The notes below the pieces were generated by a model that was not told the DNA's origin, did not search any database, and saw nothing but the letters and a program-made list of their open reading frames with translations. Position numbers and translations under genes: made by a program. DNA of 64,000 nt. Source: Winslowiella toletana (GTDB taxonomy: Bacteria > Pseudomonadota > Gammaproteobacteria > Enterobacterales > Enterobacteriaceae). Shown here piece by piece: positions 37,904 through 52,142 of this stretch (position 1 is the stretch's first letter; every line of letters begins with the position of its first letter). The stretch is taken from the NCBI RefSeq assembly GCF_032164335.1, contig NZ_CP134152.1, positions 806,001 through 870,000 of the forward strand, read 5' to 3'.

Positions 37904-38401
37904 TTATGGGGTAATGCAGTTAGCAGGTAGTGGCGCATTCGCATCTTCATCAACTTTGAATTGCCACTCAGCATAGCTGCTCGCTTTTTTAAAGTTCTGA
38001 TAAATATGCGCAAATCCTTCTTTCTTAATCGGTTTTCCAGCACCTTTACTGTAAACCCCAGTCCAGCGTCCTTTATCATCATAGATCATTCCCCAGTCGC
38101 CTTTCTGACTGAACGGATCCCGATAGTGCTGGCGCAGCAGATAACGATGGGGCGTGAAGCGGCGATCGCTCAGCAATTGCTGAATATTTAATGGGAAGCA
38201 TCTATTCCCGGCGGGGTTATCCCGATATTTCTGGATGGCTTCACGAATCTGATCGCCAGCAAACAGTAGCTGTGCCTCTCGTTCCTGACGCCATTCGGTG
38301 CGCAGATGATCCTGACTGCGCAGCAGCATCAGAGCCAGTATACTCAGCCAGGCCAGCAACAGCAGATAGCTGAATCCAGCCTGATGATTACCAGTCGGCA
38401 T
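37904..38401 (-). CDS. Atypical T2SS pseudopilin lacking the conserved Glu5
   Basis: 165 aa from ATG 38401, 14 bases inside the previous gene; a longer frame from 38467 would overlap further and is rejected. The N-terminus (MPTGNHQAGFSYLLLLAWLSILALML) has a G-F prepilin cleavage site and a hydrophobic helix, but the fifth mature residue is Leu, not Glu, as in GspK-like tip pseudopilins. The rest (EAQLLFAGDQIREAIQKYRDN, HYRDPFSQKGDWGMIYDDKGRW) resembles the globular part of G-type pseudopilins. It is the last gene of the operon and a candidate tip subunit. Confidence 0.65.
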   Translation of the reverse strand: MPTGNHQAGFSYLLLLAWLSILALMLLRSQDHLRTEWRQEREAQLLFAGDQIREAIQKYRDNPAGNRCFPLNIQQLLSDRRFTPHRYLLRQHYRDPFSQKGDWGMIYDDKGRWTGVYSKGAGKPIKKEGFAHIYQNFKKASSYAEWQFKVDEDANAPLPANCITP

Positions 38402-38756
38402 AAGCGCTGCCTTCCAGCGATTTCTTTTCGGAACCGCTATGAACATCAATAATCTGACCGTGCTCATCTTGTTGAGTTTTCCAGCTGTTATTTTTATCGG
38501 TAATCGGATCGAGCGGCAGCTGGCGCAGATATCCCTTGTCTATCATCTCTTCCAGCGTGGTTGGGCTGTTGATATTGTCGCGACGGAACTGATCAATAGA
38601 CAGACGCAGGGTGTTCAGATTGTGCTTTAACACCACCTCTTTTGCCCGTACGGTTTGCTGAAAGTAGCGCGGTGCCACCAGCGTCATCAGCGTGGCGATA
38701 ATTGCCATCACCACCAGCAGTTCAATCAGGGTAAAGCCTTTTTCACCATTGCGCAT
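38388..38756 (-). CDS. T2SS pseudopilin, GspG/H-like
   Basis: 122 aa from ATG 38756. Class III prepilin leader with cleavage at EKG-FTLIELLVVMAII, Glu at mature position 5, followed by the amphipathic helix and an IDQFRRDNINSPTTLEEMIDKGYLRQLPLDPIT segment typical of G-type pseudopilins. It overlaps both neighbouring pseudopilin genes, a sign of tight co-expression. Confidence 0.8.
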   Translation of the reverse strand: MRNGEKGFTLIELLVVMAIIATLMTLVAPRYFQQTVRAKEVVLKHNLNTLRLSIDQFRRDNINSPTTLEEMIDKGYLRQLPLDPITDKNNSWKTQQDEHGQIIDVHSGSEKKSLEGSAYADW

Positions 38757-39222
38757 AAGGCACTCCATTCAGTCCATAAGCCTGGCTGGATGAGACAACG
38801 TCGTAAATATCGCTGCCTGGAGAAAAATTACCGGCATCATTAGTACTGCTGCGCACGCGCCAGGTCTCCTCGTCCGCTTTGCCTTCACAATCACACATCG
38901 GATCGCGCGGCAGGCGTCGCATAAAATAGATTTTGCGTTTATTCGGTGAGGTTTTATCGACCACCCCCTCGGTTAGCGCTTTAAGGTTTTTTGGATAGCC
39001 AGGCTCGTCGGCTTTTTTTTCTATTCGCCCTTCAATCGCCGCGCGCTGGTAGTCATCCAGCGCCTGACGTATTTGTCGCAGTGCCGTTTGTAGCTGCTCC
39101 TCTTTATGCCGCTGACCCTGTTTTTCGAGCAGCGGCAGTGAGGCGGCAGCCAGCGTCGCCAGCAGGCTTAGGGTTACCATCATCTCAATCAGGGTAAAAC
39201 CCTGCTGCCTGATCCGCTTCAT
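38743..39222 (-). CDS. T2SS pseudopilin, GspG-like
   Basis: 159 aa. Leader MKRIRQQG-FTLIEMMVTLSLLATLAAASLP with cleavage Gly and Glu5, then the Gln-rich helix and the LPRDPMCDCEGKADEETWRVRSS region of G-type pseudopilins, including a CDC pair unusual for the family. Its start overlaps the secretin stop (ATGA). Confidence 0.8.
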   Translation of the reverse strand: MKRIRQQGFTLIEMMVTLSLLATLAAASLPLLEKQGQRHKEEQLQTALRQIRQALDDYQRAAIEGRIEKKADEPGYPKNLKALTEGVVDKTSPNKRKIYFMRRLPRDPMCDCEGKADEETWRVRSSTNDAGNFSPGSDIYDVVSSSQAYGLNGVPYAQW

Positions 39223-41105
39223 CTGGTCAGTTCCGGCAGAGGTTCAGCCGCCGGATTCGGTGACGGCAATGCACCGCGCTGTTCAGGGAAATGCGCCGGT
39301 GGCACCAGCTGTGGCGCAATAAACGCTTCTCTGCCGACCTGAATACGGCCCGGTGCTCGCAGACGCATATCCTGCTCACCCGGTAGATCTTCGGTGCCGA
39401 CCGCAATGGCGCTGACATGCGCGCCTGGCAGATCAATGTTGCGGGCAATACGCGGCGTAATCAGCAGTACCACTTCCGTTCGTTTACTCTCTTTATCCGA
39501 GGTTCTGAACAGCGAACCAATCAGGGGAATATCGCTTAGCCATGGCAGGCCGCTTTTCTCATCTTTTTGATCCTCTCTGATCAAACCGGCCAGCATTTGG
39601 GTTTCGCCATCAAGACTGCTGAGAATGGTTTTCGCCATGCGGTTGTTGGTACTGTAATATTTCAGCCCGTCTTTACTCTCCTGCGACTGCCCAAGGCTGC
39701 TGAGTGTGAACTCCACATCCATACTGATTTCACCATCAAGGCTGATCTCCGGCGTCACATTAAGTTTCAGGCCAACGTCCTGATAATCCACTTTCTGATT
39801 GGTGACGCCATCATTGGTGGTATTGGTCAATACCGGCATTTTTTCGCCAATTTCAATCAATGCAGGTTTGTTGTTTTTCACATGAATTCGCGGGTTAGCC
39901 AGCACTTTAGCGTTATTGCGTATTTTACTGATGTCGACTTTGATACCGCGATTCCCCCCGAGATTGATAAACATATTGTCGCGGTTAAAGCCATTCAGCG
40001 GGATATTATTGCCGGCATCGGTCGTACCGAAGCCAATACCCACTTCGCCTGGATAACGAATGCCCAGTTTGGTGGCGTCGCTACTGCTGATCTCCAGCAC
40101 TTCTACTTCCAGCGTCACTTCTGCTTCTGGTCGATCCAGCGTCATCAATAAGCGCTCGATCATTTCAATGCTTTCGCGCGGACTACGCACCGTGATGGTA
40201 TTGGTGCGCTCATCAACGTGAATATCTTTTAGTTTCAGAATATTGCGCAGCGCGACGTTGATATCTTTGGCTTTGGCATAACCAAGGAAGAAGGTCTTCA
40301 CCATCATATCGCGGTACAACTTCTCTTTGCTTTGGCTGGCCGGATAGATCAGCAGGGTATTACTGTTCAGCACTTTTTTGCGCAGTTGATTGGAGATCAG
40401 CAGTAAGTTGATTGCATCTTCAGCGGTGGTGTTATTGGCAATAATGCTGGTGGTAATACTGCGGGTAACGTCATTATCAAAGATAAAGTTCACGCCTGTA
40501 ATTTTGGAAATGGTGGCAAAGATCTCCATCAGATTATGGGAGCGAAAGTTAAGTGATACTGGCTTTTGCAGTTCCACATGCATACGTTGCGACGGCATTG
40601 AGCTGGAAGAGAGTCGGCGTAGCAGATGGTCGCGCAGCGCGACGGCCTGTGGCCAGCCCGGCTCTTCCTCCAGCACTTTGCGGATTTTTTCCAGCGCCGC
40701 TTCCGGATTATCAGCCGACAGCTTGCTGGCCTGCTGGTACATCACGTCCAGAGAGCGATAATTGTTAATGCGGCGTATTCCTTGCTGAGCGCGCATATTA
40801 CCGGGTTGATACTCCAGCGCGGTGTGCCACAGACGTGATGCTTCCTGGTAATTGTTTTCGCCAACGGCACGTTCAGCTTGTTTCATATACAGATCGACCA
40901 GCTGGTTACTTTCCAGCTGTTCGCGGCTCTTCAGCGCCATATCATCAGGAGCGACCTGACGCTGTTTTTTCAGCTTATCCAGCGAGGTGACTAACTGTTG
41001 TTGTTGGTTTTGCACCCGGGCGGCATCGTGATCGCGAGTGTCTGAAGCGCAGCCTGCCAGCAGCAGCAGTCCGATGACCACTGAGAGATTTTTTTTAATA
41101 AACAT
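39219..41105 (-). CDS. gspD: TPR-containing lipoprotein secretin, GspD/PilQ-like
   Basis: 628 aa. The signal peptide ends in a lipobox (LLLLAGCAS, Cys 19), so the secretin is itself a lipoprotein. Residues about 65-150 form a TPR-like helical region (DLYMKQAERAVGENNYQEASRLWHTALEYQPGN), followed by an N0/STN-like domain (PVSLNFRSHNLMEIFATISKITGVNFIFDNDV), a secretin N domain (DINVALRNILKLKDIHVDERTNTITV) and the secretin core (VEVLEISSSDATKLGIRYPG, LANPRIHVKNNKPALIEIGEKMPV, VGLKLNVTPEI, GLPWLSDIPLIGSLFR, LLITPRI). A TPR-bearing, self-lipidated secretin differs from the classical GspD and fits the atypical T2SS or PilQ-like subgroup. Confidence 0.85.
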   Translation of the reverse strand: MFIKKNLSVVIGLLLLAGCASDTRDHDAARVQNQQQQLVTSLDKLKKQRQVAPDDMALKSREQLESNQLVDLYMKQAERAVGENNYQEASRLWHTALEYQPGNMRAQQGIRRINNYRSLDVMYQQASKLSADNPEAALEKIRKVLEEEPGWPQAVALRDHLLRRLSSSSMPSQRMHVELQKPVSLNFRSHNLMEIFATISKITGVNFIFDNDVTRSITTSIIANNTTAEDAINLLLISNQLRKKVLNSNTLLIYPASQSKEKLYRDMMVKTFFLGYAKAKDINVALRNILKLKDIHVDERTNTITVRSPRESIEMIERLLMTLDRPEAEVTLEVEVLEISSSDATKLGIRYPGEVGIGFGTTDAGNNIPLNGFNRDNMFINLGGNRGIKVDISKIRNNAKVLANPRIHVKNNKPALIEIGEKMPVLTNTTNDGVTNQKVDYQDVGLKLNVTPEISLDGEISMDVEFTLSSLGQSQESKDGLKYYSTNNRMAKTILSSLDGETQMLAGLIREDQKDEKSGLPWLSDIPLIGSLFRTSDKESKRTEVVLLITPRIARNIDLPGAHVSAIAVGTEDLPGEQDMRLRAPGRIQVGREAFIAPQLVPPAHFPEQRGALPSPNPAAEPLPELTR

Positions 41106-41107
41106 AA

Positions 41108-41620
41108 TCAGAATTCTGGTTTCGATTTCATATCATCCAGCGATAAATGCTGGTCGTTTTTTAGCGGCAGCCAGCGGAACGTCAGCGAATCTGTCGCGAT
41201 TTCCATCAACTGCCAGTTGTTATCCAGCTTGTCGCCGGGGCGGATGCTCTCCTGCAATTTGCACTGTCGACAGACAATCCAGCTTTCGCGGCCATCAGTC
41301 AGCACCAGCAGGCGCTGGTTATTGCTCCACCAGGCACCGACCACCTTAAAAGGAAGCTGTGGTGCGCGTGGCTTTTCTGGCCTGGCGGTGGCGGGTGCAG
41401 AAGCAGGCTCGACGGGGTTACCCTGATAAGGAAACAGGTCATCAGACGCATTGCCGGCGATCGCGGGCGGCGCGGGAGTCGTCGGGATATCACGCACCGG
41501 ATGGGGCTGGCTTACCGTCAACAGACTTTCTTCTTCCTGAGCATCGCCACTCAGTGCACTCCACAGGCTGATGACCGCGGTCAGCAGCAGCATCACCTGT
41601 AGGTAACGCGGCAGCTTCAT
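41108..41620 (-). CDS. GspC/PilP-like T2SS inner-membrane component
   Basis: 170 aa. One N-terminal membrane segment (MKLPRYLQVMLLLTAVISLWSAL), a Pro/Ala-rich linker (about 35-85), and a small C-terminal beta domain (PFKVVGAWWSNNQRLLVLTDGRESWIV, NNWQLMEIATDSLTFRW) resembling the HR domain of GspC or the beta domain of PilP that contacts the secretin. Starts in an ATGA overlap with the upstream gene and ends 2 nt before the secretin. GspC proper is larger; the C assignment is by architecture and order. Confidence 0.65.
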   Translation of the reverse strand: MKLPRYLQVMLLLTAVISLWSALSGDAQEEESLLTVSQPHPVRDIPTTPAPPAIAGNASDDLFPYQGNPVEPASAPATARPEKPRAPQLPFKVVGAWWSNNQRLLVLTDGRESWIVCRQCKLQESIRPGDKLDNNWQLMEIATDSLTFRWLPLKNDQHLSLDDMKSKPEF

Positions 41621-42171
41621 CGGCCTTCTCCGGTTAATGTGACGCGCAGCGACATCGTCAGCTGAGTGCTGGCGGGGGAAGTCCGCGCCATCGCCAGCGA
41701 TTCAAACTGCAACGGCAGCGTGCCTGACATCTCACGCAGCGCGGCTTGTAAGCGCGGATAGTCGCCGGTTAACGGAATATCGAGGATCATCTGCTCACTC
41801 TTTGAATCATTACTGTCAGAGAGCAGCTGGTAACGACTCTCACGTGCTTCAAGACCGTGTTTTTTCAGAATGGCAAACAGCGCCTTGACCTGCTGATACT
41901 CTTTAACGCTCAGCGAGCTCAGCGCTTCTTCCTCCTCCGGCGTACTGACGGGCAGCGGCACAGCAAGCTGCTGATGCACGGATTGCAGGCGCAGGCTATT
42001 TGCATGCAGCTCCGGGCGCAGCTGGGCGCATAAATACATCAGCAGTACCAGCCATAATCCGACGATTAACAATGGCAGCGGGCCGAACATTTCATAACTC
42101 TTACCGGCCCACCAGCGCAGGCGCGGCAGCAGATCTTTCATCGAAGGCAGCGTGCCAGCATTAAGACGCAT
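41617..42171 (-). CDS. GspM/PilO-like T2SS assembly protein
   Basis: 184 aa from ATG 42171 with GGAG 8 nt upstream. A short cytoplasmic N-terminus, a membrane segment (GPLPLLIVGLWLVLLMYLCA), a helical stretch with STPEEEEALSSLSV and a small ferredoxin-like domain at the end (MILDIPLTGDYPRLQAALREM, LTMSLRVTLTG). The layout is that of PilO/GspM. It overlaps the preceding gene by 11 nt and the next by 4 nt. Confidence 0.7.
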   Translation of the reverse strand: MRLNAGTLPSMKDLLPRLRWWAGKSYEMFGPLPLLIVGLWLVLLMYLCAQLRPELHANSLRLQSVHQQLAVPLPVSTPEEEEALSSLSVKEYQQVKALFAILKKHGLEARESRYQLLSDSNDSKSEQMILDIPLTGDYPRLQAALREMSGTLPLQFESLAMARTSPASTQLTMSLRVTLTGEGR

Positions 42172-42652
42172 GGGAATACTCCAGATTGAGCGTGGCGCGT
42201 ATCTTCCATGGTTCGGTCAGGCTGGTTTCGGTGTGATGATGTTCCAGGCCAACCCTGGCTCTGGTGTCTTGTAAGCGCGAGACGAAATCCAGCAACGAGT
42301 CCAGCGAATGGGCGACCACTTCCACCCGCATCTGCTGTTGACGTGCATCCACTTGCAGCGACATCAGCGCAATATCTTTGCTCAGGGCCTGACCAATAAG
42401 CGCCAGCCCGGCCAACTGCTGCGGTTCTTGCTGCTGGGGCTGGCTGGCGTAAGCCCGCTGCCTGGCCAGAATGACCTCCGCGGCCTGACTGTGCGCATTC
42501 AACTTCTGCATCTCTGCGGCCAGCTCTGTCTGCAGTTGGTTTTGCTGCTGATGGCTGAAGAAAATCGCCGTCAGCAGCGGAGTCATCAGCACAATCAGTA
42601 ACGCCGCATTAACCGGCATTGCCCGGCGGGATATAAACTGGTGGTTAGTCAT
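42161..42652 (-). CDS. PilN-like T2SS assembly protein
   Basis: 163 aa from ATG 42652, overlapping the upstream gene by 8 nt; a longer frame to 42925 runs through that gene and is rejected. A membrane segment (NAALLIVLMTPLLTAIFFSH), a coiled-coil-like helical stretch (QLQTELAAEMQKLNAHSQAAEVILARQR) and a small beta-alpha domain (QQMRVEVVAHSLDSLLDFVSRLQD) match PilN. It forms the platform with the PilM- and PilO-like neighbours. Confidence 0.75.
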   Translation of the reverse strand: MTNHQFISRRAMPVNAALLIVLMTPLLTAIFFSHQQQNQLQTELAAEMQKLNAHSQAAEVILARQRAYASQPQQQEPQQLAGLALIGQALSKDIALMSLQVDARQQQMRVEVVAHSLDSLLDFVSRLQDTRARVGLEHHHTETSLTEPWKIRATLNLEYSHAS

Positions 42653-43346
42653 CACGATTATTCTCTGCCGCAATCTTGGTGCTGGCGGTCTCACTGTGCA
42701 CCACATAGCGCTCCAGTGGTGGCAATCCTGCCAGGCGATTTGCCGTATCCAGTTGTTGTAATTCGTCACTGTGTGGCAGGCGCAACGTAAAGGTACTGTG
42801 CCAGCGATGCTGCCAGCGAAAGGCAAAGCTGCTTTGCTGCTCACCGATGCTGGCAAACAGCGCGTTCTCCGGCAGGCTGCGACCACAGCGAGCCAGCAGG
42901 TTACTGAATGGCGTGCTGCAGCCAATCAGCCGCAGCCGATGCTGGCTGCTCAGCTGTTTCAGACTGACCAGCAGCGTTTTATTCAATAACGCTGCAAAAG
43001 CATCTTCACCGAAGCTGCTGCGCAGAAAGCTGACCTTCATCTCATGCTGTTCACCCTGCTGCTCGGCCAGCAATAATCTGGCGTACTGCCTTAGCTCGCG
43101 TGGCCGCGTAATCCCCTGTGGCCAGGGAACCAGCAGGTAACTGACGTGTGGTGCATCAACGATAAATTCCAGCGAATCGCGCCAGGCGGGGGCCGCAGGC
43201 AGCGTGCTGAACAGCTGCTCCAGCTGGGCTGGCAACGGCAGGTCGGGCTGCCACTGGCACTGCGCATGCAGGCTGCCGCCCAACCATAGCTGCAACTGGT
43301 GTTGGTAGAGCTTGCAGCACCAGTGATTAATGAAGGGAAATAACAC
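42645..43346 (-). CDS. PilM/GspL-like cytoplasmic assembly protein
   Basis: 233 aa. The start is set at GTG 43346, where AGGAGG lies 6 nt upstream inside the end of gspE; the frame is open further but the added residues are unsupported. Sequence outline: FINHWCCKLYQHQLQLWLGG then a mixed alpha/beta protein with VDAPHVSYLLVPWPQG and a C-terminal LERYVVHSETA. No membrane segment is seen, so together with the next gene it replaces a classical GspL as a separate PilM plus PilN pair. Sequence similarity is weak; order in the operon carries much of the weight. Confidence 0.6.
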   Translation of the reverse strand: MLFPFINHWCCKLYQHQLQLWLGGSLHAQCQWQPDLPLPAQLEQLFSTLPAAPAWRDSLEFIVDAPHVSYLLVPWPQGITRPRELRQYARLLLAEQQGEQHEMKVSFLRSSFGEDAFAALLNKTLLVSLKQLSSQHRLRLIGCSTPFSNLLARCGRSLPENALFASIGEQQSSFAFRWQHRWHSTFTLRLPHSDELQQLDTANRLAGLPPLERYVVHSETASTKIAAENNRDD

Positions 43347-44964
43347 GCCTGACCTCCTGTAAAGTGGTGAAGCCCTGGCTGGCGGCTTCAATTGCGATTT
43401 GATGCAGCGGGATAAAACCCTCTTTCATCGCCAGTTCGCGCAGCTGGCGCAGTGGCGCGCGCGCCAGCAAGGCTTCTTTCATCGCATCGCTAAAATGCAG
43501 GACTTCGGCCAGCGCCAGTCGCCCGTGGTAGCCGCTGTGACGGCAATGCTCACAACCTGCGCCAACGTGCCAGCAGGCGTGGCTGAACGGCTGTTTATCC
43601 AGCTGCCAGTGCGTAATCTCTTCGGCTGTCGGTTGATGAGGTTGTTTACACGCCGGGCACAGCTGGCGTACCAGCCGCTGCGCCACCACGCCATTCAGTG
43701 CCGTAATCAGGCTGGCTGGCTCCACCTGCATATACATAAAGCGTTCCAGCACGCTGAACACGCTATTGGCGTGTACCGATGACAACACCACGTGCCCGGT
43801 CAGTGCTGCCTGAACCGCAATGCCCGCCGTCTCACCGTCACGGATTTCGCCGACCAGGATAATGTCTGGGTCATGGCGCAGAATGGCGCGCAGACCGCGG
43901 GCGAAAGTCAGCCCTTTTTTATCGTTAACCGGGATTTGTAATACCCCTTCCAGCTGATATTCCACCGGATCTTCAATGGTGATGATCTTGCTTTCACCGC
44001 TGTTCAGCTCGCTGAGCGCGGAGTAGAGCGTGGTGGATTTGCCGCTGCCGGTCGGTCCGGTCACCAGTACCATGCCGTGTGGGATTTGCGTCAGCTTGCG
44101 GATCGCCTGCAGTGTCTGGCCGTCGAATCCCAGCGTTTCCAGCCGCAGTTTTTTGTCGTGGGATTTATCCAGTACGCGCAAGACCGCATCCTCGCCGTGA
44201 ATGCTCGGCATGATCGAAACGCGGAAATCGACGTTGCGCTGCTGAATGTGCGCTTTGAAACGTCCATCCTGTGGAATGCGGCGTTCAGAAATATCCATAC
44301 AGCCCAGCACTTTCAGCCGTGAAATGATCTGTTCCGCATTCTGTGAACCGTTGCAGCGGGTAATGGCGTGCAGTACGCCATCGATCCGGTATTTCACCAC
44401 CAGCCCATCGGGTACGCTCTCCAGATGGATATCACTGGCACGGCTTTGAAGTGCGTCGTACAGCGTGGAGTTGACCAGTTTAATCACCGGGCTTTGCTCC
44501 TCGGACAGGCTAAGCAGCGAGATCACCAGCGCCGTTTCTTCCGTCTGGCCGTCAAAATCCTGCGGTTCGAGGTGATCCATGGTGCGCTGCTGGCGCGACA
44601 GCTGATCCAACTGCTCATTCACCCAGCCCGGACGACAAAGCGCGATGCGATCGCTGTAACGCTGCGCCCACTGACGCTGCGTCAGTGAAAACGGATCGGC
44701 CATCAGCAACCAGCTTTTTCCGTCCAGCGTAATTGGCAACAGGCGGCGTGACAGCGCCTGCGGCAGCGAGATACGAGAGAAATCCTGCCCGGCCTCAACC
44801 AGCTGCTGCTGTGATAACGGGTATAAACCCAGTTCAGCGGCGAGCGTTGTCAGCTGTTCAGGCTGCGATGTCAGCAGCTGTTCCAGCCAGTCGGTTCGTT
44901 GCTCCGGCGTCATGGTTAACCATGGCGAGGATGCGCTGTCGGCATGATGTGTTAGTTGAGTCAT
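43327..44964 (-). CDS. gspE: T2SS assembly ATPase GspE
   Basis: 545 aa. N1E/MshEN-like N-terminal region (LAAELGLYPLSQQQLVEA), then RASDIHLESVPDGLVVKYRIDG, Walker A GPTGSGKSTTLYS at about residue 302, Asp box EDPVEYQLEGVLQIPVN, Walker B IILVGEIRDGETA and a tetracysteine zinc motif (CPACKQPH ... CEHCRHSGYHGR). Role: powers pseudopilus extension on the cytoplasmic face. All nucleotide-binding motifs are intact. The start overlaps the gspF stop by one base. Confidence 0.96.
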   Translation of the reverse strand: MTQLTHHADSASSPWLTMTPEQRTDWLEQLLTSQPEQLTTLAAELGLYPLSQQQLVEAGQDFSRISLPQALSRRLLPITLDGKSWLLMADPFSLTQRQWAQRYSDRIALCRPGWVNEQLDQLSRQQRTMDHLEPQDFDGQTEETALVISLLSLSEEQSPVIKLVNSTLYDALQSRASDIHLESVPDGLVVKYRIDGVLHAITRCNGSQNAEQIISRLKVLGCMDISERRIPQDGRFKAHIQQRNVDFRVSIMPSIHGEDAVLRVLDKSHDKKLRLETLGFDGQTLQAIRKLTQIPHGMVLVTGPTGSGKSTTLYSALSELNSGESKIITIEDPVEYQLEGVLQIPVNDKKGLTFARGLRAILRHDPDIILVGEIRDGETAGIAVQAALTGHVVLSSVHANSVFSVLERFMYMQVEPASLITALNGVVAQRLVRQLCPACKQPHQPTAEEITHWQLDKQPFSHACWHVGAGCEHCRHSGYHGRLALAEVLHFSDAMKEALLARAPLRQLRELAMKEGFIPLHQIAIEAASQGFTTLQEVRRVISLH

Positions 44965-46133
44965 CAGGCTAATCCTCCGGCCATTTCAAAAATCGGCATA
45001 TACAGCAGAAATACCACCAGGCCGACCAGTCCACCGACGATCAGCATCAGGATCGGTTCAAACACCTTGCTGAAGGTTTCGATGGCACGTTCGAGGTTTT
45101 CGTCATAAAACGCCGCGATGCGTTCGCACATGGCGGGCAATTCACCACTGCGTTCACCGACCACCAATAGCCTACTGGCGACCGGAGTGGTCAGCCCCTG
45201 AGTTTCCAGGCAGTGCGAAAGCGCCTTGCCCGCCTGCACATCCATCAGTGCCTGCTGTAGCCGTGGCTGATACGAATTCGGTAGCAGGCTGCCGGTCAGT
45301 TGCAGCGCTTCGACGGCGGCCATTCCGCCCTGCAACAGCAGGCCAAGGGTGCGGTAGAAGCGCACCAGTATCGCCAGCTGATATTGTTGTTTAAGCTGTG
45401 GCACGCGCATCAGCTGGTTTAAAGCGGACTGCCGCAGGCTTTTGCTGCGCACGGCGGCGATCAGCAGCACGACCGCAGCGGCGGTCAGCATCATTAATAA
45501 CGCGCCATAGTTCTGCGTCAGGTGCCCCCACCAGACGATAAACTGCGCGCTGCCCGTCAGGTCTTTCATGCCGGTGAACACCACGGCGAAGCGCGGGATA
45601 ATAAAGCCGAGCAAAAAGAACAGGATCAGGCAGCCGACGCTGATCACCACGCAGGGATAGAGCAGGGTGCTACGAATGCGCTTACGCAAGGTTTCCATAC
45701 GCTTTTCGTAATGCAGGAAACGCCCGAGCGCGACGGGCAGCTGTCCGGTCTGTTCTGACGACGCTACGGTGCTGACCAGTAATGGCGGGAACAACAGCGG
45801 CTGGGCGACAAGCGCCTGAGAAAGCTGCTGACCGCGATAAAGTTCTTTCAGGATTTCCCCTAATACCCGGCGCTGTTCTGCATCAGCGCTGCTTTCACAC
45901 AGTGCTTCAATCGCTTCGACAATCACCAGACCGGCCTCGAGCAGCGCGATTAACTCCTGGATAAACAGCGTCAGCGGAAAAGGGCGCACGCGTCTCGTCA
46001 GCCGGCTGGCTTTGGCCTCAAGTACCAGAGCACCTGGCGCCAGCTGGGCTTTGGCTTCTTCGACGCTGTTGGCACACACCTGCTCCGTGCTGCGGACACC
46101 GTTACGCAATAAAGTAATTTGATAGTTTTTCAT
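44964..46133 (-). CDS. gspF: T2SS inner-membrane platform protein GspF
   Basis: 389 aa. Two T2SSF domains (about 55-180 and 255-385) with membrane segments at about 155-180 (LYPCVVISVGCLILFFLLGFI), 205-230 and 355-380 (ILMLIVGGLVGLVVFLLYMPIF). Conserved motifs include FIQELIALLEAGLVIVEAIEAL, VASSEQTGQLP, and VVGERSGELPAM. It forms the platform under the pseudopilus for GspE. Confidence 0.95.
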   Translation of the reverse strand: MKNYQITLLRNGVRSTEQVCANSVEEAKAQLAPGALVLEAKASRLTRRVRPFPLTLFIQELIALLEAGLVIVEAIEALCESSADAEQRRVLGEILKELYRGQQLSQALVAQPLLFPPLLVSTVASSEQTGQLPVALGRFLHYEKRMETLRKRIRSTLLYPCVVISVGCLILFFLLGFIIPRFAVVFTGMKDLTGSAQFIVWWGHLTQNYGALLMMLTAAAVVLLIAAVRSKSLRQSALNQLMRVPQLKQQYQLAILVRFYRTLGLLLQGGMAAVEALQLTGSLLPNSYQPRLQQALMDVQAGKALSHCLETQGLTTPVASRLLVVGERSGELPAMCERIAAFYDENLERAIETFSKVFEPILMLIVGGLVGLVVFLLYMPIFEMAGGLA

Positions 46134-46147
46134 GATTTCTTACTGGC

Positions 46148-46594
46148 TTACGGCCGGTTTTCTTGTTTGAGCCGCGCATAGTGAGGCTGGACGCGCATAA
46201 CGTAACGCTGGCGCAGATGTTCACGGGCGGCCGATCCGCCGGCGTTATACGCGCCAACCGCGTCCCAGCTGTAGCCGTAGCTACGCATAAAACCGGCCAG
46301 TACCCAGGCTCCCGTCATTACGCTCAGACAGGGATCATCGAGCAGCTTTCGTTCTGATATCTGAAAGTTGCGCAGCCTGGGCAGATGCCGACTGTTAATC
46401 TGCATCAGCCCGATGTCATAGCTACCATCGCGGTTCTGATTGCGCGCCGAGGCTTGCAAATTGGACTCTACAATGGCGATAGCCTGTAGCAGCTCCGGCT
46501 CAATGCCGTAACGCTGCCCGGCCTGATCCCAGCAGGTGGCGTAAACGGGCAGTTGCACAAACCAGAGCAGGAGTAAAAGCAGTGAAGTACGCAC
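46148..46594 (-). CDS. Lytic transglycosylase (SLT/IagB-like) within the T2SS operon
   Basis: 148 aa from a GTG start. A signal peptide (MRTSLLLLLLWFVQLPVYA) is followed by an SLT-type lysozyme fold: the catalytic Glu in IAIVESNLQ, GLMQINSRH, AYNAGGSAA. Small periplasmic transglycosylases of this kind (IagB, PilT-associated proteins) open peptidoglycan for secretion machines. It lies between gspG and gspF with 2 and 14 nt gaps, so it is integral to the operon and presumably clears a path for the secretin or pseudopilus. Confidence 0.9.
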   Translation of the reverse strand: MRTSLLLLLLWFVQLPVYATCWDQAGQRYGIEPELLQAIAIVESNLQASARNQNRDGSYDIGLMQINSRHLPRLRNFQISERKLLDDPCLSVMTGAWVLAGFMRSYGYSWDAVGAYNAGGSAAREHLRQRYVMRVQPHYARLKQENRP

Positions 46595-46596
46595 AA

Positions 46597-47019
46597 TCAG
46601 AACCCGTAACTCACCTTTTTCCCGTCATTACCGGTGGCAATCAGCTCCACTTCATACACCACATTCTTGTTACGGGTCGGTTTGTGCCATTGGTAAGGAT
46701 TGCCCCAGGGATCGGCGGGCACTTCTTTACTCAGATAAGGGCCGTGCCAGTTCCTCTCGCCGCTCGGGCGCTCTGTCAGTGCTTTCAGCCCCTGCTCTTC
46801 GGAGGGATATTGACCGACGTCAAGACGGTACTGGCTCAGTGCCTGTGACAAACTCTTCATCTGGCTGGCGGCGGTTTTATCTTTGGCCTGATCAACCTGT
46901 GAAAAAAGACGCGGACCAACAAAGCCAGCCAGTAAGGCGATAATCATTAACACCACCAGTAATTCGAGCAGGGTAAAACCTTGTTGCTGGCGATAATGGG
47001 ATAATAGATATTTGTTCAT
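46597..47019 (-). CDS. gspG: T2SS major pseudopilin GspG
   Basis: 140 aa from ATG 47019, placing the cleavage site at QQQG-FTLLELLVVLMIIALLAGFVGPRLF; an upstream ATG at 47046 would lengthen the leader to 23 residues. Mature protein has Glu5 and the diagnostic GspG end: QYRLDVGQYPSEEQGLKALTERPSG, GPYLSKEVPADPWGNPYQW, VELIATGNDGK. It is the main subunit of the pseudopilus and the first gene of the leftward operon. Confidence 0.95.
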   Translation of the reverse strand: MNKYLLSHYRQQQGFTLLELLVVLMIIALLAGFVGPRLFSQVDQAKDKTAASQMKSLSQALSQYRLDVGQYPSEEQGLKALTERPSGERNWHGPYLSKEVPADPWGNPYQWHKPTRNKNVVYEVELIATGNDGKKVSYGF

Positions 47020-47335
47020 GAGGTTCTCACGGTAGCCATATTTCATTCATTGCAAATTCATTCGATTATTCTTAAACATTTAATGATGAATTTGTAGGCT
47101 ATTGCTCTTTCGTTTATTAAGAATATTGGCGGGCTGGCGGAGAATATTCTTTATCTGCTGATTGCCTTTAACTTTCATCACTCTTTGTATTATCTTTAGA
47201 GAAAATTAAGCTTTCGCCGTTCAGTTTTAGAAAATTAAAAAACATAATGGTTTATTAATAACGTTTTGTTTCTGATAAAAAAGTAGACTCAACCTGTCTG
47301 GCGGTGTGTTAAATAATTAATAAATGAGATGATAA
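47020..47335. promoter_or_regulatory. Divergent AT-rich promoter region between gspG and gspO
   Basis: 316 nt with no gene, very AT-rich (long A and T runs around 47180-47330). It must drive the T2SS operon leftward and gspO rightward. No confident sigma-70 hexamer pair was fixed by eye. A GAGATG ribosome-site-like element precedes the gspO ATG. Confidence 0.5.
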
Positions 47336-48094
47336 ATGCAGATTGCTCTGGCTCTGCTGCTTGGTGCAGTTTTCGGTAGTTTCCTCAACGTGGTGATTTA
47401 TCGCCTGCCGCTAATGATGGCAGGTGCGCAATGTTGTTTAAGTTTTCCTCCTTCTTCATGCCCTTGTTGCCAGGCACGTATCCGCTGGCGGCACAATCTG
47501 CCGCTATTCGGCTGGTTGCTGCTGCGCGGACGCTGTGCCGATTGCCAGCAGGCAATTCACTGGCGCTATCCGCTGGTGGAAGCGGTGACGGCAGGATTGT
47601 TTGCGCTGATGCTCTGGCGCTACGGCGTAACACTGTATTGCGCCATGTTACTGATTGCTATCTGTCTGATGATTGCGCTGGCAGCGATTGACTGGCAGAC
47701 CATGCTGCTGCCGGATTGTCTGGTATTGCCGCTGTGGGGGCTGGGAATTGCCGCCGCCGGATTGGGCCTTGAAACCGTCAGCTTAACAGAAGCGTTAATC
47801 GCGTCTCTGCTGGGGTATCTGCTGCCGTGGTTATTGGATCGCGGATGTTACCTGCTGCGTGGACGCGCCGGAATGGGGATGGGGGATATGAAGCTGTTTG
47901 CTGCGCTGGGGGCCTGGTTTGGCGTGGAAACGCTGTGCCAGATTATGGTATTTGCGCCTTTGCTGGCGATAGCGACTGCCATACTGTTGTTACGGGTGAA
48001 ACCGAATCAGCCCTTTCCTTTTGGCCCTTATCCGATTGTCGTGGCGCTGATCTGCCTGGTTTTTGGACGCCAGGATTATCCTGCTTTTTTCTGA
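47336..48094 (+). CDS. gspO: Prepilin peptidase GspO (PilD family)
   Basis: 252 aa. The N-terminal GSFLNVVIYRLP motif, two CxxC pairs (CPCCQARI and CADCQQAI) of the methylase-type zinc domain, and the catalytic aspartates in AIDWQTMLLPD and GMGMGDMKL are all present. About seven membrane segments. It cleaves and N-methylates the G-F junction of prepilins and pseudopilins, so it should process the four pseudopilins on the opposite strand. It is divergent from their operon and 143 nt before the chitinase-like gene. Confidence 0.96.
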   Translation: MQIALALLLGAVFGSFLNVVIYRLPLMMAGAQCCLSFPPSSCPCCQARIRWRHNLPLFGWLLLRGRCADCQQAIHWRYPLVEAVTAGLFALMLWRYGVTLYCAMLLIAICLMIALAAIDWQTMLLPDCLVLPLWGLGIAAAGLGLETVSLTEALIASLLGYLLPWLLDRGCYLLRGRAGMGMGDMKLFAALGAWFGVETLCQIMVFAPLLAIATAILLLRVKPNQPFPFGPYPIVVALICLVFGRQDYPAFF

Positions 48095-48237: not shown

Positions 48238-50199
48238 ATGAAAAATAACATTAAGAAACTAAGTTTATTGATTAGTGTGCTCCTGTCCCCCGCACTTTCT
48301 GCTGCGCTTCCTGGTGAAGCGGTGATTTCTGATACGGATAATTTGACCGCCTCGCTGGTTGATATTGATTATAATGCGCAGTCTTATCAACAGTTAGTCA
48401 CCGTTAAATCCGCAGCAAAGGTGACGGTTAAGTGGAATATCTGGAGTGGCGACGGCGGTACACGTGCAAATATATTAGTCGATGATATTGTTCACTGGAG
48501 CGGAAGCAGCGCCGAGCAACGCGCCAGTTTTATCATCAAGAAAGGCGGACATTATCAGCTACAGATTGAGCTGTGTAATGTCGAAGGCTGTAGTTTCAGT
48601 AAAAGACATCCGCTGATCGTGGCCGACACAGACGGCAGTCATCTGGAGCCGATAGACCTCCCGCTGCCGGATAACCATCAGCCTTACCAGAACCGTTCGG
48701 CTAAAGTCATCGCGGCCACGTTCACCGAATGGGGCGGTGAGGATGGCTATTTTCCGGTGAGCAGCATTCCGGCACAGAATCTGACGCATCTGCTTTATGC
48801 AGAGCTGCCAATTTGTGGTGGCGAGATGATAAATCATACCCTGAAAATACGTCAGCCACAGCGCTATCAGGCTTTGATGCGTAGCTGCGCCGGACGGCCA
48901 GATTTTAGCGTCGGCTTACTGGATCTTTACGCTGCGGTGCAGAACAGTGAGGGAATAAGTGGCCAGAGTAGCTATCAGGGCCATTTTGGTCAGTTGATGA
49001 TGCTGAAAAGAAGTTTGCCACAACTACAAATCCTGCCCTCAATCGGCGGAGCGACGCTTTCTGATCCTTTCAGCCAGTTGGACGATCCGCTTCGTCGTCA
49101 GCAGTTTGTCGATTCGGTAAAAGTACTGCTGCAGACGTGGAAGTTTTTTGATGGGATTAATATCGACTGGCAATATCCAGGCGGGGGCGGCGTCGGTGCA
49201 AACCCCGGTAAGCCAACCGATGGCGCAATTTTCACCGCATTAATGAAAGAGCTGCGGGCCATGATGGATGAGCTGGCCATCCGCAACGGCAAACAGTATC
49301 AGTTAACCGCAACGGTTGATGGCGGCGCACGGCGTATTGCCAGAGTGAACTATGCTGAGGCTCAGCGCTATCTGGATCATATTTTCCTTAATGGCGACGG
49401 CAGCGTCGCGCCGGGTGAGCAGCAATACCCCTGGCATCAGAGCGCGCTGTATGACGAACGTCGGCCGGCCGTTGATAACAGCGTGCGCGCGTTGATTAAT
49501 CAGGGAGTCAGTAGTGATAAAATTGTACTGGGTTTTGCCAGTTACGCCCAGGGCTGGCAGGGAGTCGACACTCATCAGCAAGCAAACCCTTTCACCGGAC
49601 GCGCCCTGGGGCCGCTGAACGGCAGCAGAGAAGCGAGCCTGATCGGTTATCGTAATCTGACGCAGCAATTGAACGATAGCCACTGGCAAGCGGGTTATGA
49701 CGAAAAAGCCGAGGTGCCTTTTCTGTTTAACAAATCGTCCCGGCAGCTGCTCAGCTATGAGAATCCGCGCTCGGTGAAAGCAAAAGGGCAGTATGTTTAT
49801 GCTCAGCGACTGGGTGGACTGCTGCTCAGCGATATCAGCGCTGATAACGGTGATTTGCTGAATGCGATGCATGAAGGTCTGGGAAACGGTGATAGTTTGC
49901 AACTGCCCGAAAACCGACCGCCGATCGCCAACGCTGGCTACACGCAGCACATTAGCGGAGCGGAGCGGGTGACGCTGGATGGATCGCAGTCAAAAGATCC
50001 GGAAGGTGGATCTCTGAGCTGGCGCTGGGAGCAGTTATCCGGGCCGCCTGTCACGCTTGAAGATGATGATCAGCAGCAGGCGCATATTAGTTTAATGGCG
50101 GTAGATCAGCAGACAGAATACAGTTTTATTCTGACGGTCACTGACGATCATCATCAGTCGTCAATAGCCAAAGTGAAAGTTATTGAATATCCACAATAA
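48238..50199 (+). CDS. GH18 ChiA-like protein with the catalytic Glu replaced by Gln, plus C-terminal PKD domain
   Basis: 653 aa. A signal peptide ends near LSAALPG. Residues about 25-130 are the ChiA-type FnIII-like N-domain (VTVKWNIWSGDGGTRANI, GGHYQLQIELCNVEGC); about 155-550 is a GH18 barrel close to Serratia ChiA (AQNLTHLLYAELPICGG, LQTWKFFDGINIDWQYPGG, LMKELRAMMDELA). The DxxDxDxE motif reads DGINIDWQ: Asn 308 in place of Asp and Gln 312 in place of the acid Glu. The Tyr-Asp catalytic segment after DHIFL is also gone (NGDGSVAPG). A PKD domain (about 560-650) ends the protein. Hydrolysis is unlikely; chitin binding or another carbohydrate role is inferred. Confidence 0.88.
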   Translation: MKNNIKKLSLLISVLLSPALSAALPGEAVISDTDNLTASLVDIDYNAQSYQQLVTVKSAAKVTVKWNIWSGDGGTRANILVDDIVHWSGSSAEQRASFIIKKGGHYQLQIELCNVEGCSFSKRHPLIVADTDGSHLEPIDLPLPDNHQPYQNRSAKVIAATFTEWGGEDGYFPVSSIPAQNLTHLLYAELPICGGEMINHTLKIRQPQRYQALMRSCAGRPDFSVGLLDLYAAVQNSEGISGQSSYQGHFGQLMMLKRSLPQLQILPSIGGATLSDPFSQLDDPLRRQQFVDSVKVLLQTWKFFDGINIDWQYPGGGGVGANPGKPTDGAIFTALMKELRAMMDELAIRNGKQYQLTATVDGGARRIARVNYAEAQRYLDHIFLNGDGSVAPGEQQYPWHQSALYDERRPAVDNSVRALINQGVSSDKIVLGFASYAQGWQGVDTHQQANPFTGRALGPLNGSREASLIGYRNLTQQLNDSHWQAGYDEKAEVPFLFNKSSRQLLSYENPRSVKAKGQYVYAQRLGGLLLSDISADNGDLLNAMHEGLGNGDSLQLPENRPPIANAGYTQHISGAERVTLDGSQSKDPEGGSLSWRWEQLSGPPVTLEDDDQQQAHISLMAVDQQTEYSFILTVTDDHHQSSIAKVKVIEYPQ

Positions 50200-50354: not shown

Positions 50355-52142
50355 ATGAAATCCTTGTTCAAAAAAAACATTATCACCGCCAGCCTGCTAA
50401 TCGCGGGAGTACTTTCCGGTTCTGCGAGTTTTGCTGCTGCCAATGATGCCGCATCAGTTTTTCCTGATATTAGCGGGAAAAAAATAATGGTGGGGTTCTG
50501 GCATAACTGGGCTTCAAAATCAGATGGTTATCAGCAAGGTAGCGCTGCCGATGTTGAACTGACCAGTATTCCTGCCGAGTATAATGTTATTACCGTCGCT
50601 TTTATGGAAGGCAGCGGTATCCCAACTTTTAAACCCTATAATATGACGGATGCACAGTTCCGTCAGGCGGTCGCCACGCTGAATAGTCAGGGGCGTGCGG
50701 TATTAGTATCACTGGGGGGGGCTGACGCGCATATTGAGCTTAAAGCCGGAGACGCGCAGAAATTTGCTGATGAAATTATTCGTCTGGTTGAGCTGTACGG
50801 TTTTGATGGTCTGGATATCGATCTGGAAGGCAGCGCAATTAAGGCCGGCGCTAACCAGACTGAAATTCCGGCGGCACTGAAACTGGTCAAGAATAAATAC
50901 CCGCACTTTATTATTAGTATGGCACCGGAATTCCCTTATTTGCGGAATGGCGGAGCCTACGAAGGTCTGATCAAAAATCTCGAAGGCTATTACGACTTCA
51001 TCTCTCCTCAGTATTACAACCAGGGTGGCGATGGCGTCGCGGCCGGAAGCGGCTGGTATGCGCAAAATGATGACAGCAAAAAAGCGGAGTTCTTGTACTA
51101 TCTGACAGATTCGCTGGTTCACGGCTCGCGTGACTTTATCCGGATTCCTGCCGATAAGTTTGTCATCGGCCTGCCGAGCAATCCGGATGCCGCCGCAACC
51201 GGTTATGCCCGCAACGAAGCCGATGTGCGTTCTGCCTGGGAGCGCCTGACGGCGCAGGGTACGCCGATTAAAGGGCTGATGACCTGGTCAATTAACTGGG
51301 ACACCGGTCACAGCAAGGCGGGCAATGCCTACGGTTATGAGTTTGCCAACCGTTACGGCAAGTTGATTAACGAAGATTTCGTTGGCGAGCCGGATAATCA
51401 GGCACCGAGCCAGCCGGGTAAGCCAGAGCTGATCGCCTCATCGGGCCTGGTTGCATTGAGCTGGACGCCATCCACCGATAACGTCGGCGTTGCTCAGTAT
51501 CAGATTTGGCGCAATGGTGAAGAGATCGGTCAGTCCACTTCGCCGCAGTTCAGCGATAATCAGGTAACTAACGGCAATGCTTACGAGTATGTGATTATCG
51601 CCGTGGATAAAGCAGGCAATCTGTCACTGCCGAGCGAAGCGGCATCAGTGGTGTTGGATGATGATAAGCCATCTGAAGATAACGAGCAGCCGAGCACTCC
51701 GCAGGGTCTGTACGGTGAGGCGAGCGGAGCGCACGCGGTGAAACTGTCGTGGGAAGCCTCAAGCGATAATGTCGCGGTGCGTCACTATAATATTTATCGC
51801 AACGGCGCGTTGCTGACGAAACAGCTGCAGACCAGCTTTATCGATACCGGCCTGGCGGCAGGCACTTCCTATCAGTATCAGGTTGAAGCGGTTGATACCT
51901 CTGATAATCATTCTGATAAGAGCGAAATGATTTCAGTCACTACCGAAGCGGGTGAAAATCCACAGCCGGGCTATCCTGCCTATGTCGCGGGTACTGCTTA
52001 TAAAGCCGGTGATAAGGTCAGTTCAGCTGGCGGAGTGTATGCATGTAAGCCATGGCCGTATACTGCCTGGTGTGCAGGCGCAGAATGGGCCTATGCACCA
52101 GGAACGGGCAGCAGTTGGGCACAGGCCTGGGATAAGAAATAA
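50355..52142 (+). CDS. GH18 chitinase with two FnIII domains and a CBM5/12
   Basis: 595 aa with signal peptide (LLIAGVLSGSASFAAA). The GH18 barrel covers about 40-345; the active-site motif DGLDIDLE (Asp 151, 154, 156, acid Glu 158) is intact, with YYDFISPQYYNQGG and LMTWSINWD as further family motifs. Two fibronectin type III domains follow (about 355-440 and 450-535), then a CBM5/12 chitin-binding module (about 540-595: AYVAGTAYKAGDKVSSAGGVYACKPWPYTAWC). It should degrade chitin outside the cell and is a probable T2SS substrate. A CTGGAGT element precedes the start, and a strong terminator follows. Confidence 0.95.
   Translation: MKSLFKKNIITASLLIAGVLSGSASFAAANDAASVFPDISGKKIMVGFWHNWASKSDGYQQGSAADVELTSIPAEYNVITVAFMEGSGIPTFKPYNMTDAQFRQAVATLNSQGRAVLVSLGGADAHIELKAGDAQKFADEIIRLVELYGFDGLDIDLEGSAIKAGANQTEIPAALKLVKNKYPHFIISMAPEFPYLRNGGAYEGLIKNLEGYYDFISPQYYNQGGDGVAAGSGWYAQNDDSKKAEFLYYLTDSLVHGSRDFIRIPADKFVIGLPSNPDAAATGYARNEADVRSAWERLTAQGTPIKGLMTWSINWDTGHSKAGNAYGYEFANRYGKLINEDFVGEPDNQAPSQPGKPELIASSGLVALSWTPSTDNVGVAQYQIWRNGEEIGQSTSPQFSDNQVTNGNAYEYVIIAVDKAGNLSLPSEAASVVLDDDKPSEDNEQPSTPQGLYGEASGAHAVKLSWEASSDNVAVRHYNIYRNGALLTKQLQTSFIDTGLAAGTSYQYQVEAVDTSDNHSDKSEMISVTTEAGENPQPGYPAYVAGTAYKAGDKVSSAGGVYACKPWPYTAWCAGAEWAYAPGTGSSWAQAWDKK

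Follow-up and report, generated by a model that had tools for sequence, protein, structure and literature searches.

A stretch of 64,000 nucleotides from Winslowiella toletana (contig NZ_CP134152.1, positions 806,001 to 870,000; hereafter the window) encodes a relative of chitinase A (ChiA) in which the active site of family GH18 appears to have been dismantled. We consider it probable, at roughly 0.6, that this is an exported, non-hydrolysing binding protein made from a ChiA-type chitinase, kept by selection and encoded next to a type II secretion system (T2SS) that is linked to chitin. As far as sequence can tell, the protein lacks the catalytic acid, its cleft replacements are common to two species, and its frame is intact and under purifying selection at the same locus.

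Catalytic motif and substrate cleft of the window protein

The window protein and its orthologue in a second genome of the genus (G010) were compared with 76 other distinct ChiA homologues, some of them from the family and order to which the window belongs and the rest from named records of Aeromonas, Shewanella, Photobacterium, Serratia, Providencia, and Vibrio (86 sequences, 78 after identical ones were merged). Columns conserved in at least 97% were called near-invariant, and there were 167 of them in the ChiA alignment. The rows dropped before counting cleft positions were L026 (the same gene as L002), L067 (partial), and L064, L066, L070, and L071 (remote or split); with the exception of L026, all of them have an intact motif. 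Matches short of E 1e-30 (L072 and the same-genus partials L003-L009) were left outside the ChiA set, and L051 was omitted from alignment A2 because its translation at the given coordinates contains a stop. A contig search with a single protein returned no loci, and with a two-row alignment it returned 45. In a survey of the order, a ChiA match (E 1e-60) was found in 100 of 394 genomes, and the motif was read in L073-L101 (29 loci) and in the family members fetched earlier. Among the sequences read, the form predicted to be dead was found in two Erwinia genomes only. The features of the window protein are as follows, with replaced residues in Serratia marcescens ChiA (SmChiA) numbering and "others" denoting the 76 homologues.

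48238..50199, + strand: ChiA-type GH18 protein, predicted non-catalytic, 653 aa (ChiN + GH18 + PKD), without a C-terminal CBM
48238..48303, + strand: putative Sec-type signal peptide, residues 1-22, recognized by eye
48304..48696, + strand: Chitinase A N-terminal domain (Fn3-like; ChitinaseA_N), residues 23-153, Pfam PF08329, 3e-40
48721..49845, + strand: GH18 domain, residues 162-536, Pfam PF00704, 3.9e-57
48802..48804, + strand: Glu189 for Phe191; Phe in 76/76 others; common to the orthologue
49051..49053, + strand: Ala272 for Trp275 (+1 subsite); Trp in 76/76 others
49150..49173, + strand: broken catalytic motif DGINIDWQ (Asn308 for Asp311, Gln312 for the acid-base Glu315)
49390..49416, + strand: NGDGSVAPG for MSYDFYGAF (Met388, Tyr390, Asp391, and Phe396 lost)
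49627..49629, + strand: Arg464 for Trp472
49828..49830, + strand: Ser531 for Trp539 (-1 subsite); Trp in 76/76 others
49933..50184, + strand: PKD domain, residues 566-649, PF22352, 7.5e-18; the protein ends directly after it

The protein has the ChiN plus GH18 architecture of chitinase A, and among solved structures those of chitinase A are the nearest to it (8w96, 7.5e-159). The sequence GATGGGATTAATATCGACTGGCAA at 49150-49173 encodes DGINIDWQ (residues 305-312), where the expected family reading is DGVDIDWE. This motif, the Ala in LPSIGGATL, and an uninterrupted 653-residue frame with a PKD domain had all been described in the first-pass annotation and were found as described. The same annotation had called the Tyr-Asp segment lost. 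The nine residues that follow DHIFL are indeed NGDGSVAPG, but compared with Serratia ChiA the segment is replaced (M388 to N, Y390 to D, D391 to G) and not deleted. The catalytic Glu of DxxDxDxE, the Met-x-Tyr-Asp segment, and the cleft residues Trp275 and Trp539, which would be expected in an active ChiA, are therefore all missing. The role of Trp275 at the +1 subsite of SmChiA and the use of E315Q as an inactive SmChiA mutant in structural work are described in PMC5132251.

Near-invariant columns are changed at 44 of 167 positions in the window protein and at 34 in the G010 orthologue, compared with a median broken fraction of 0.7% in the 76 other homologues. Among the columns changed in both species, 23 of 34 carry the identical new residue. 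The positions changed in both copies include Y163, F191, W275, D311, E315, M388, Y390, D391, W472, and W539. A list of 23 residues that we take to be substrate contacts has 18 near-invariant members. The window protein breaks 13 of these and the G010 protein 11, of which 11 are common to both (Fisher p = 6e-5 for shared broken contacts against other near-invariant columns); when each of the 76 others was left out in turn, 65 broke no contact, 10 broke one, and 1 broke two. A stricter list consisted of the 10 near-invariant residues named in PMC5132251 and PMC12239106. The window and G010 proteins break the same six of these ten positions, and at four of the six the new residue is identical in both (hypergeometric P = 5.4e-3 against the background of broken columns), while none is broken in 75 of the 76 others and one is broken in L058. 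The claim that losses extend across the cleft beyond chance is upheld by these counts, and most of the predicted ChiA substrate cleft is replaced in the window protein.

The L058 protein, the ChiA of Enterobacteriaceae bacterium RIT693, has an intact motif and an Ala at the Glu473 position, and it breaks one of the ten contacts. In a tree with 39 of the 78 rows its branch measured 1.31, and the stem leading to the pseudo-ChiA pair measured 1.27. Since a branch as long leaves the cleft nearly intact, L058 serves as a natural control for the pair.

Not every active-site residue is gone. The equivalents of Asp313, Glu473, and Tyr444 are retained and the new charged residues Glu189 and Arg464 are found in both species, as would be expected if a rebuilt polar pocket (Asn308, Asp310, Gln312, Glu189, Arg464, Glu465) catalysed another reaction. 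We consider a new enzyme of this kind very improbable, because it is backed by neither a model nor a known catalytic arrangement, and position 387, the old Tyr390, is Asp in one copy and Glu in the other.

The replacements include the aromatic residues Y163, W275, Y390, F396, W472, and W539 and, at the less conserved surface positions, those at 33 and 245. Thus, the aromatic sugar platforms that chi-lectins retain are lost, although Trp69 in ChiN and Trp167 in the cleft are kept. The C-terminal region is also reduced. The 76 ChiA relatives comprise 62 proteins longer than 800 aa and 14 shorter than 650 aa. In the two Erwinia copies the first PKD domain is followed by the end of the protein, whereas the long relatives continue with a further Ig/PKD-type repeat and a CBM_5_12 domain; PKD-type repeats followed by CBM_5_12 above the Pfam cut-off were present in 9/9 long relatives scanned. 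A search past the stop, covering the gap of 155 bases in the window and the corresponding gap in G010, found no CBM remnant. The absence of the CBM is not in itself fatal to activity, since the short Serratia type (one tail read, L052) ends without PKD or CBM as well.

These observations bear on the proposal, made in the first-pass annotation, that the protein is a chitin lectin. A lectin that sequesters chitin or chito-oligosaccharide fragments uncut, in the manner of fungal chitinase-like effectors, would agree with the retention of Trp69 and Trp167 and with the same kind of Gln/Asn substitutions in the inactive GH18 effectors of Moniliophthora, as described in PMC13220806. On the other hand, most cleft aromatics are gone, and there is no CBM5/12. 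According to PMC3662789, chitin binding persists in YKL-39, in which the aromatics are retained, but has been lost in TCLL, whose cleft aromatics are replaced; by analogy the window protein may have lost it as well. Chitin binding is therefore the weaker half of that first reading, and a lectin of this kind is unlikely. Some sugar binding may nonetheless occur through Trp69 and Trp167. For the non-hydrolysing binding protein that we prefer, we favour a ligand other than the chitin polymer.

Orthologue, selection, and erosion

Some ChiA match was present in 8 of 37 genomes of the genus, and a full-length protein was encoded only in the window's own genome (G000) and in G010. The two proteins are 78% identical in a gap-free alignment, and the two loci are syntenic from a sensor kinase gene at one end through the T2SS to djlA. 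Alignment with ChiA homologues, a check that the first-pass annotation had proposed, showed that Asn308, Gln312, Ala272, and Ser531 are common to the window protein and this syntenic orthologue; the catalytic Glu is not restored there. The Gln codon is CAA in both. Since CAA is one base from GAA, a sequencing or assembly error could in principle have produced it. The same codon, accompanied by other cleft losses, in an independent genome at 78% identity excludes this in practice, in agreement with the earlier opinion, and the explanation was rejected.

The dN/dS ratio of the ChiA-type pair, another proposed check, was 0.204 (bootstrap 0.161-0.257) at a dS of 0.66 (Nei-Gojobori, 652 codons), which indicates purifying selection. 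Values for 12 other genes ranged from 0.031 (surA) to 0.236 (GspC-like). The frame is intact in both copies, with no stop or indel over this dS, and when half of the observed differences were placed randomly, about 7 stops arose on one lineage (minimum 1, 500 draws). The orthologue with its shared losses, the dN/dS ratio, and the intact frame together indicate that the gene has been retained since the loss of the cleft. The view of a maintained non-catalytic protein is thus supported, with a reservation for the window lineage. The features of a GH18 pseudoenzyme are all present, namely a GH18 fold that is predicted to be kept, loss of the catalytic acid, and maintenance by selection.

The reservation arises from an asymmetry between the two copies. 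Counted over columns with at least 95% conservation in the family, 11 changes are private to the window copy and none to the G010 copy (p = 0.001); the corresponding ratios are 19:7 at 80% columns (p = 0.03) and 28:18 at 50% columns (p = 0.18). In the same test, two of 17 other genes were nominally skewed: a GspM-like gene (10:2, p = 0.04), whose skew runs the same way as that of the ChiA-type gene, and the ChiC neighbour (13:30, p = 0.01), whose skew is reversed. The branch lengths are 0.29 for the window and 0.06 for G010, and the window row was flagged for unusual composition. The window lineage changes faster at family-conserved sites, through either weaker constraint or adaptation; the 11:0 losses and the longer branch fit weaker constraint. 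The replaced Tyr-Asp segment (residues 385-412) has a dN/dS of 0.56.

We counted the asymmetry, the longer branch, the value for this segment, and the presence of the gene in 2 of 37 genus genomes against our best explanation, together with a decayed GH18 gene in G029, one of the five genus genomes that share the T2SS (described below). Most of these points would also be expected if chitin digestion had lost its value and the copy were drifting toward decay. Such drift is nevertheless improbable in view of the upper bound of 0.257 on dN/dS, the frames that stayed open in both lineages, and the identical new residues at most of the near-invariant columns changed in both species.

The secretion locus and a second GH18 protein

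The ChiA-type gene adjoins a T2SS cluster on one side and a second GH18 gene on the other.

37904..47046, - strand: T2SS cluster with pseudopilins, secretin, GspC/M/L-like proteins, GspE, GspF, lytic transglycosylase, and GspG
47336..48094, + strand: prepilin peptidase GspO (PF06750, PF01478), directly upstream of the ChiA-type gene
50355..52142, + strand: ChiC-type GH18 with intact DGLDIDLE, presumed active, downstream neighbour

Pfam matches were obtained for the secretin, GspE, GspF, GspG, GspO, and the lytic transglycosylase, and two more proteins of the cluster have a prepilin methylation motif (Pfam). The GspC-, L-, and N-like reading frames have no Pfam match and were named by position. 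The lytic transglycosylase gene sits between gspG and gspF, an order also seen in the other Enterobacteriaceae loci fetched. With respect to export, the N-terminus of the ChiA-type protein is signal-like by eye and its gene adjoins gspO. The neighbouring ChiC (595 aa) has a C-terminal tail similar to the final domain of two chitin-binding proteins, GbpA and CbpD, although no CBM was identified in it by Pfam. A promoter and terminator scan gave counts near the shuffle expectation (9 vs 6.6 and 8 vs 5.6).

A close secretin homologue was found in 5 of 37 genus genomes and in 11 of 392 sampled family genomes. When the gspO side of ten such T2SS loci was inspected, a GH18 gene lay within about 20 kb in five (G206, G302, G784, G775, G068b), and none was recognised in the other five. 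In two genomes, G034 and G005, LPMO_10 genes are close to the T2SS, and in G029 they are at a distance of about 8 kb. On these grounds, this T2SS seems to be associated with chitin in roughly half of the cases. An outer-membrane-receptor-like protein of about 650 aa, of the TonB-dependent type by eye, also recurs near the T2SS; its gene is next to gspO in L169, L172, and L173 (G747, G254, and G325) and near the T2SS in G029, G206, and G068. It is perhaps involved in the uptake of released sugars.

In G034 and G005 the same T2SS occupies the same place, beside apaH. There, gspO is followed directly by a ChiC-type gene, with no ChiA-type gene between.

L136:13334-14977: ChiC-type GH18 of G034, motif DGLDISLP
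L137:11777-13426, reverse strand: ChiC-type GH18 of G005, motif DGLDIHLA

In both proteins the catalytic Asp and Glu of DGLDIDLE are replaced. The motif was read in 38 distinct ChiC-type homologues (44 loci given, 43 rows including 5 duplicates of a gene already read), and it is broken in these two only; for G068b, whose ChiC is incomplete at the end of its stretch, it was read from L191. The open frames have 547 and 549 codons, and the pair has a dN/dS of 0.219 (0.167-0.280), which again indicates purifying selection. By Pfam search this dead ChiC is the only GH18 in either genome, and three LPMO_10 genes are kept in each. One LPMO_10 gene is located at the other end of the T2SS (G034:C1:3203630-3204178 in L136, G005:C23:113886-114434 in L137).

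Both proteins lack the tail of the window's ChiC, and no convincing residual CBM coding was detected after their stops (best E 2.4). The tail may have been lost in G034 and G005 or gained in the lineage of the window and G010. Because ChiC-type open frames range from 353 to 876 aa (G068b excluded), the missing tail speaks less strongly for convergence than the loss of the motif does. The two proteins retain PQYYNQ/PQFYNQ and WSVNWD, so that they resemble a classical chi-lectin more than the window protein does; the lectin explanation discussed above suits this ChiC better.

In G029, the remains of a ChiC-type gene, interrupted by six internal stops, are found next to a copy of gspO (G029:C1:3076056-3076421, at about 28.1-28.5 kb, L138+L139). 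Plain decay therefore does occur at such loci, and it is against decay of this type that the two pseudoenzymes stand out. A dead ChiA-type and a dead ChiC-type protein at one secretion locus suggest that two GH18 subfamilies became pseudoenzymes independently.

Proposed function and comparison with known systems

We propose that, in the Erwinia lineage, a ChiA-type chitinase lost hydrolysis and most of the cleft that holds chitin, and has no chitin-binding module, while selection would have kept the protein as a secreted non-cutting binder. Judging from the signal-like N-terminus and the locus, export would proceed by the Sec route and the neighbouring T2SS. The least certain steps are that a ligand of another kind, for instance a protein or a different glycan, might be bound at the former sugar site or on the surface of the barrel, and that the ChiN and PKD domains might act as spacers or adhesion modules.

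Both the ChiA-type protein and the ChiC of G034 and G005 are most likely secreted non-cutting binding proteins made from chitinases. The dead ChiC-type GH18 at the same place in a related lineage suggests that the locus repeatedly uses a non-cutting GH18. A wider interpretation can be offered only tentatively, and we lean against it: one Erwinia T2SS locus may have independently converted ChiA-type and ChiC-type GH18 enzymes into secreted proteins that do not cut and have no chitin-binding module. This would be the bacterial equivalent of the convergent fungal chitinase-like effectors, and the window protein would have gone further and rebuilt its site for a non-chitin ligand. Two independent losses at one locus would constitute a natural experiment on what a chitin-linked T2SS gains from a non-cutting GH18. 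There is also a consequence for annotation, as such a protein scores strongly as a chitinase (here with the Pfam GH18 value listed above) and could be counted as active.

Inactive GH18 proteins are already known in plants, in animals, and, more recently, as effectors in fungi. What is new here is the second dead GH18 at the same T2SS locus of a related species, a bacterial variant of these known proteins. A search of the open-licence literature, so far as the texts were accessible, found no bacterial GH18 pseudoenzyme maintained by selection among the matches listed.

Chitinase A, as represented by Serratia marcescens ChiA and the Enterobacter/Aeromonas-type enzymes, is the nearest known system. 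It has the same ChiN plus GH18 fold, the relatives read are 36-50% identical, and the long members have PKD as the window protein does. In contrast, in the window protein the catalytic Glu and Asp, the Tyr-Asp pair, and most cleft aromatics are replaced, and CBM_5_12 is absent. The neighbour at 50355-52142 is of the same type as S. marcescens chitinase C1 (4axn, 3e-131). The ChiC proteins of G034 and G005 are relatives of that type and differ by DGLDISLP/DGLDIHLA and by the absence of the chitin-binding-like tail of the window ChiC.

No ChiN or PKD domain is known in YKL-39, TCLL, concanavalin B, or XIP-I. These four are, like the window protein, GH18 barrels in which catalysis is lost, and TCLL shares with it the replaced cleft aromatics; they are eukaryotic, and no bacterial secretion link is mentioned in the sections of PMC3662789 consulted. 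In Serendipita indica, a paralogue lacking CBM5 suppresses chitin-triggered immunity and the CBM5-bearing one is antifungal, according to PMC13039781. In Moniliophthora perniciosa and M. roreri, inactive GH18 effectors of separate origin are reported to scavenge chito-oligosaccharides (Fiorin et al. 2018, cited from PMC13220806). From that account, they resemble the window protein in the change of Glu/Asp to Gln/Asn in DxxDxDxE and the Erwinia case in their independent origins in related plant-associated microbes; they are fungal and bind chito-oligosaccharides, whereas the window protein is bacterial, is encoded at a secretion locus, and has a largely replaced cleft. By this analogy, the Erwinia proteins may parallel the fungal effectors.
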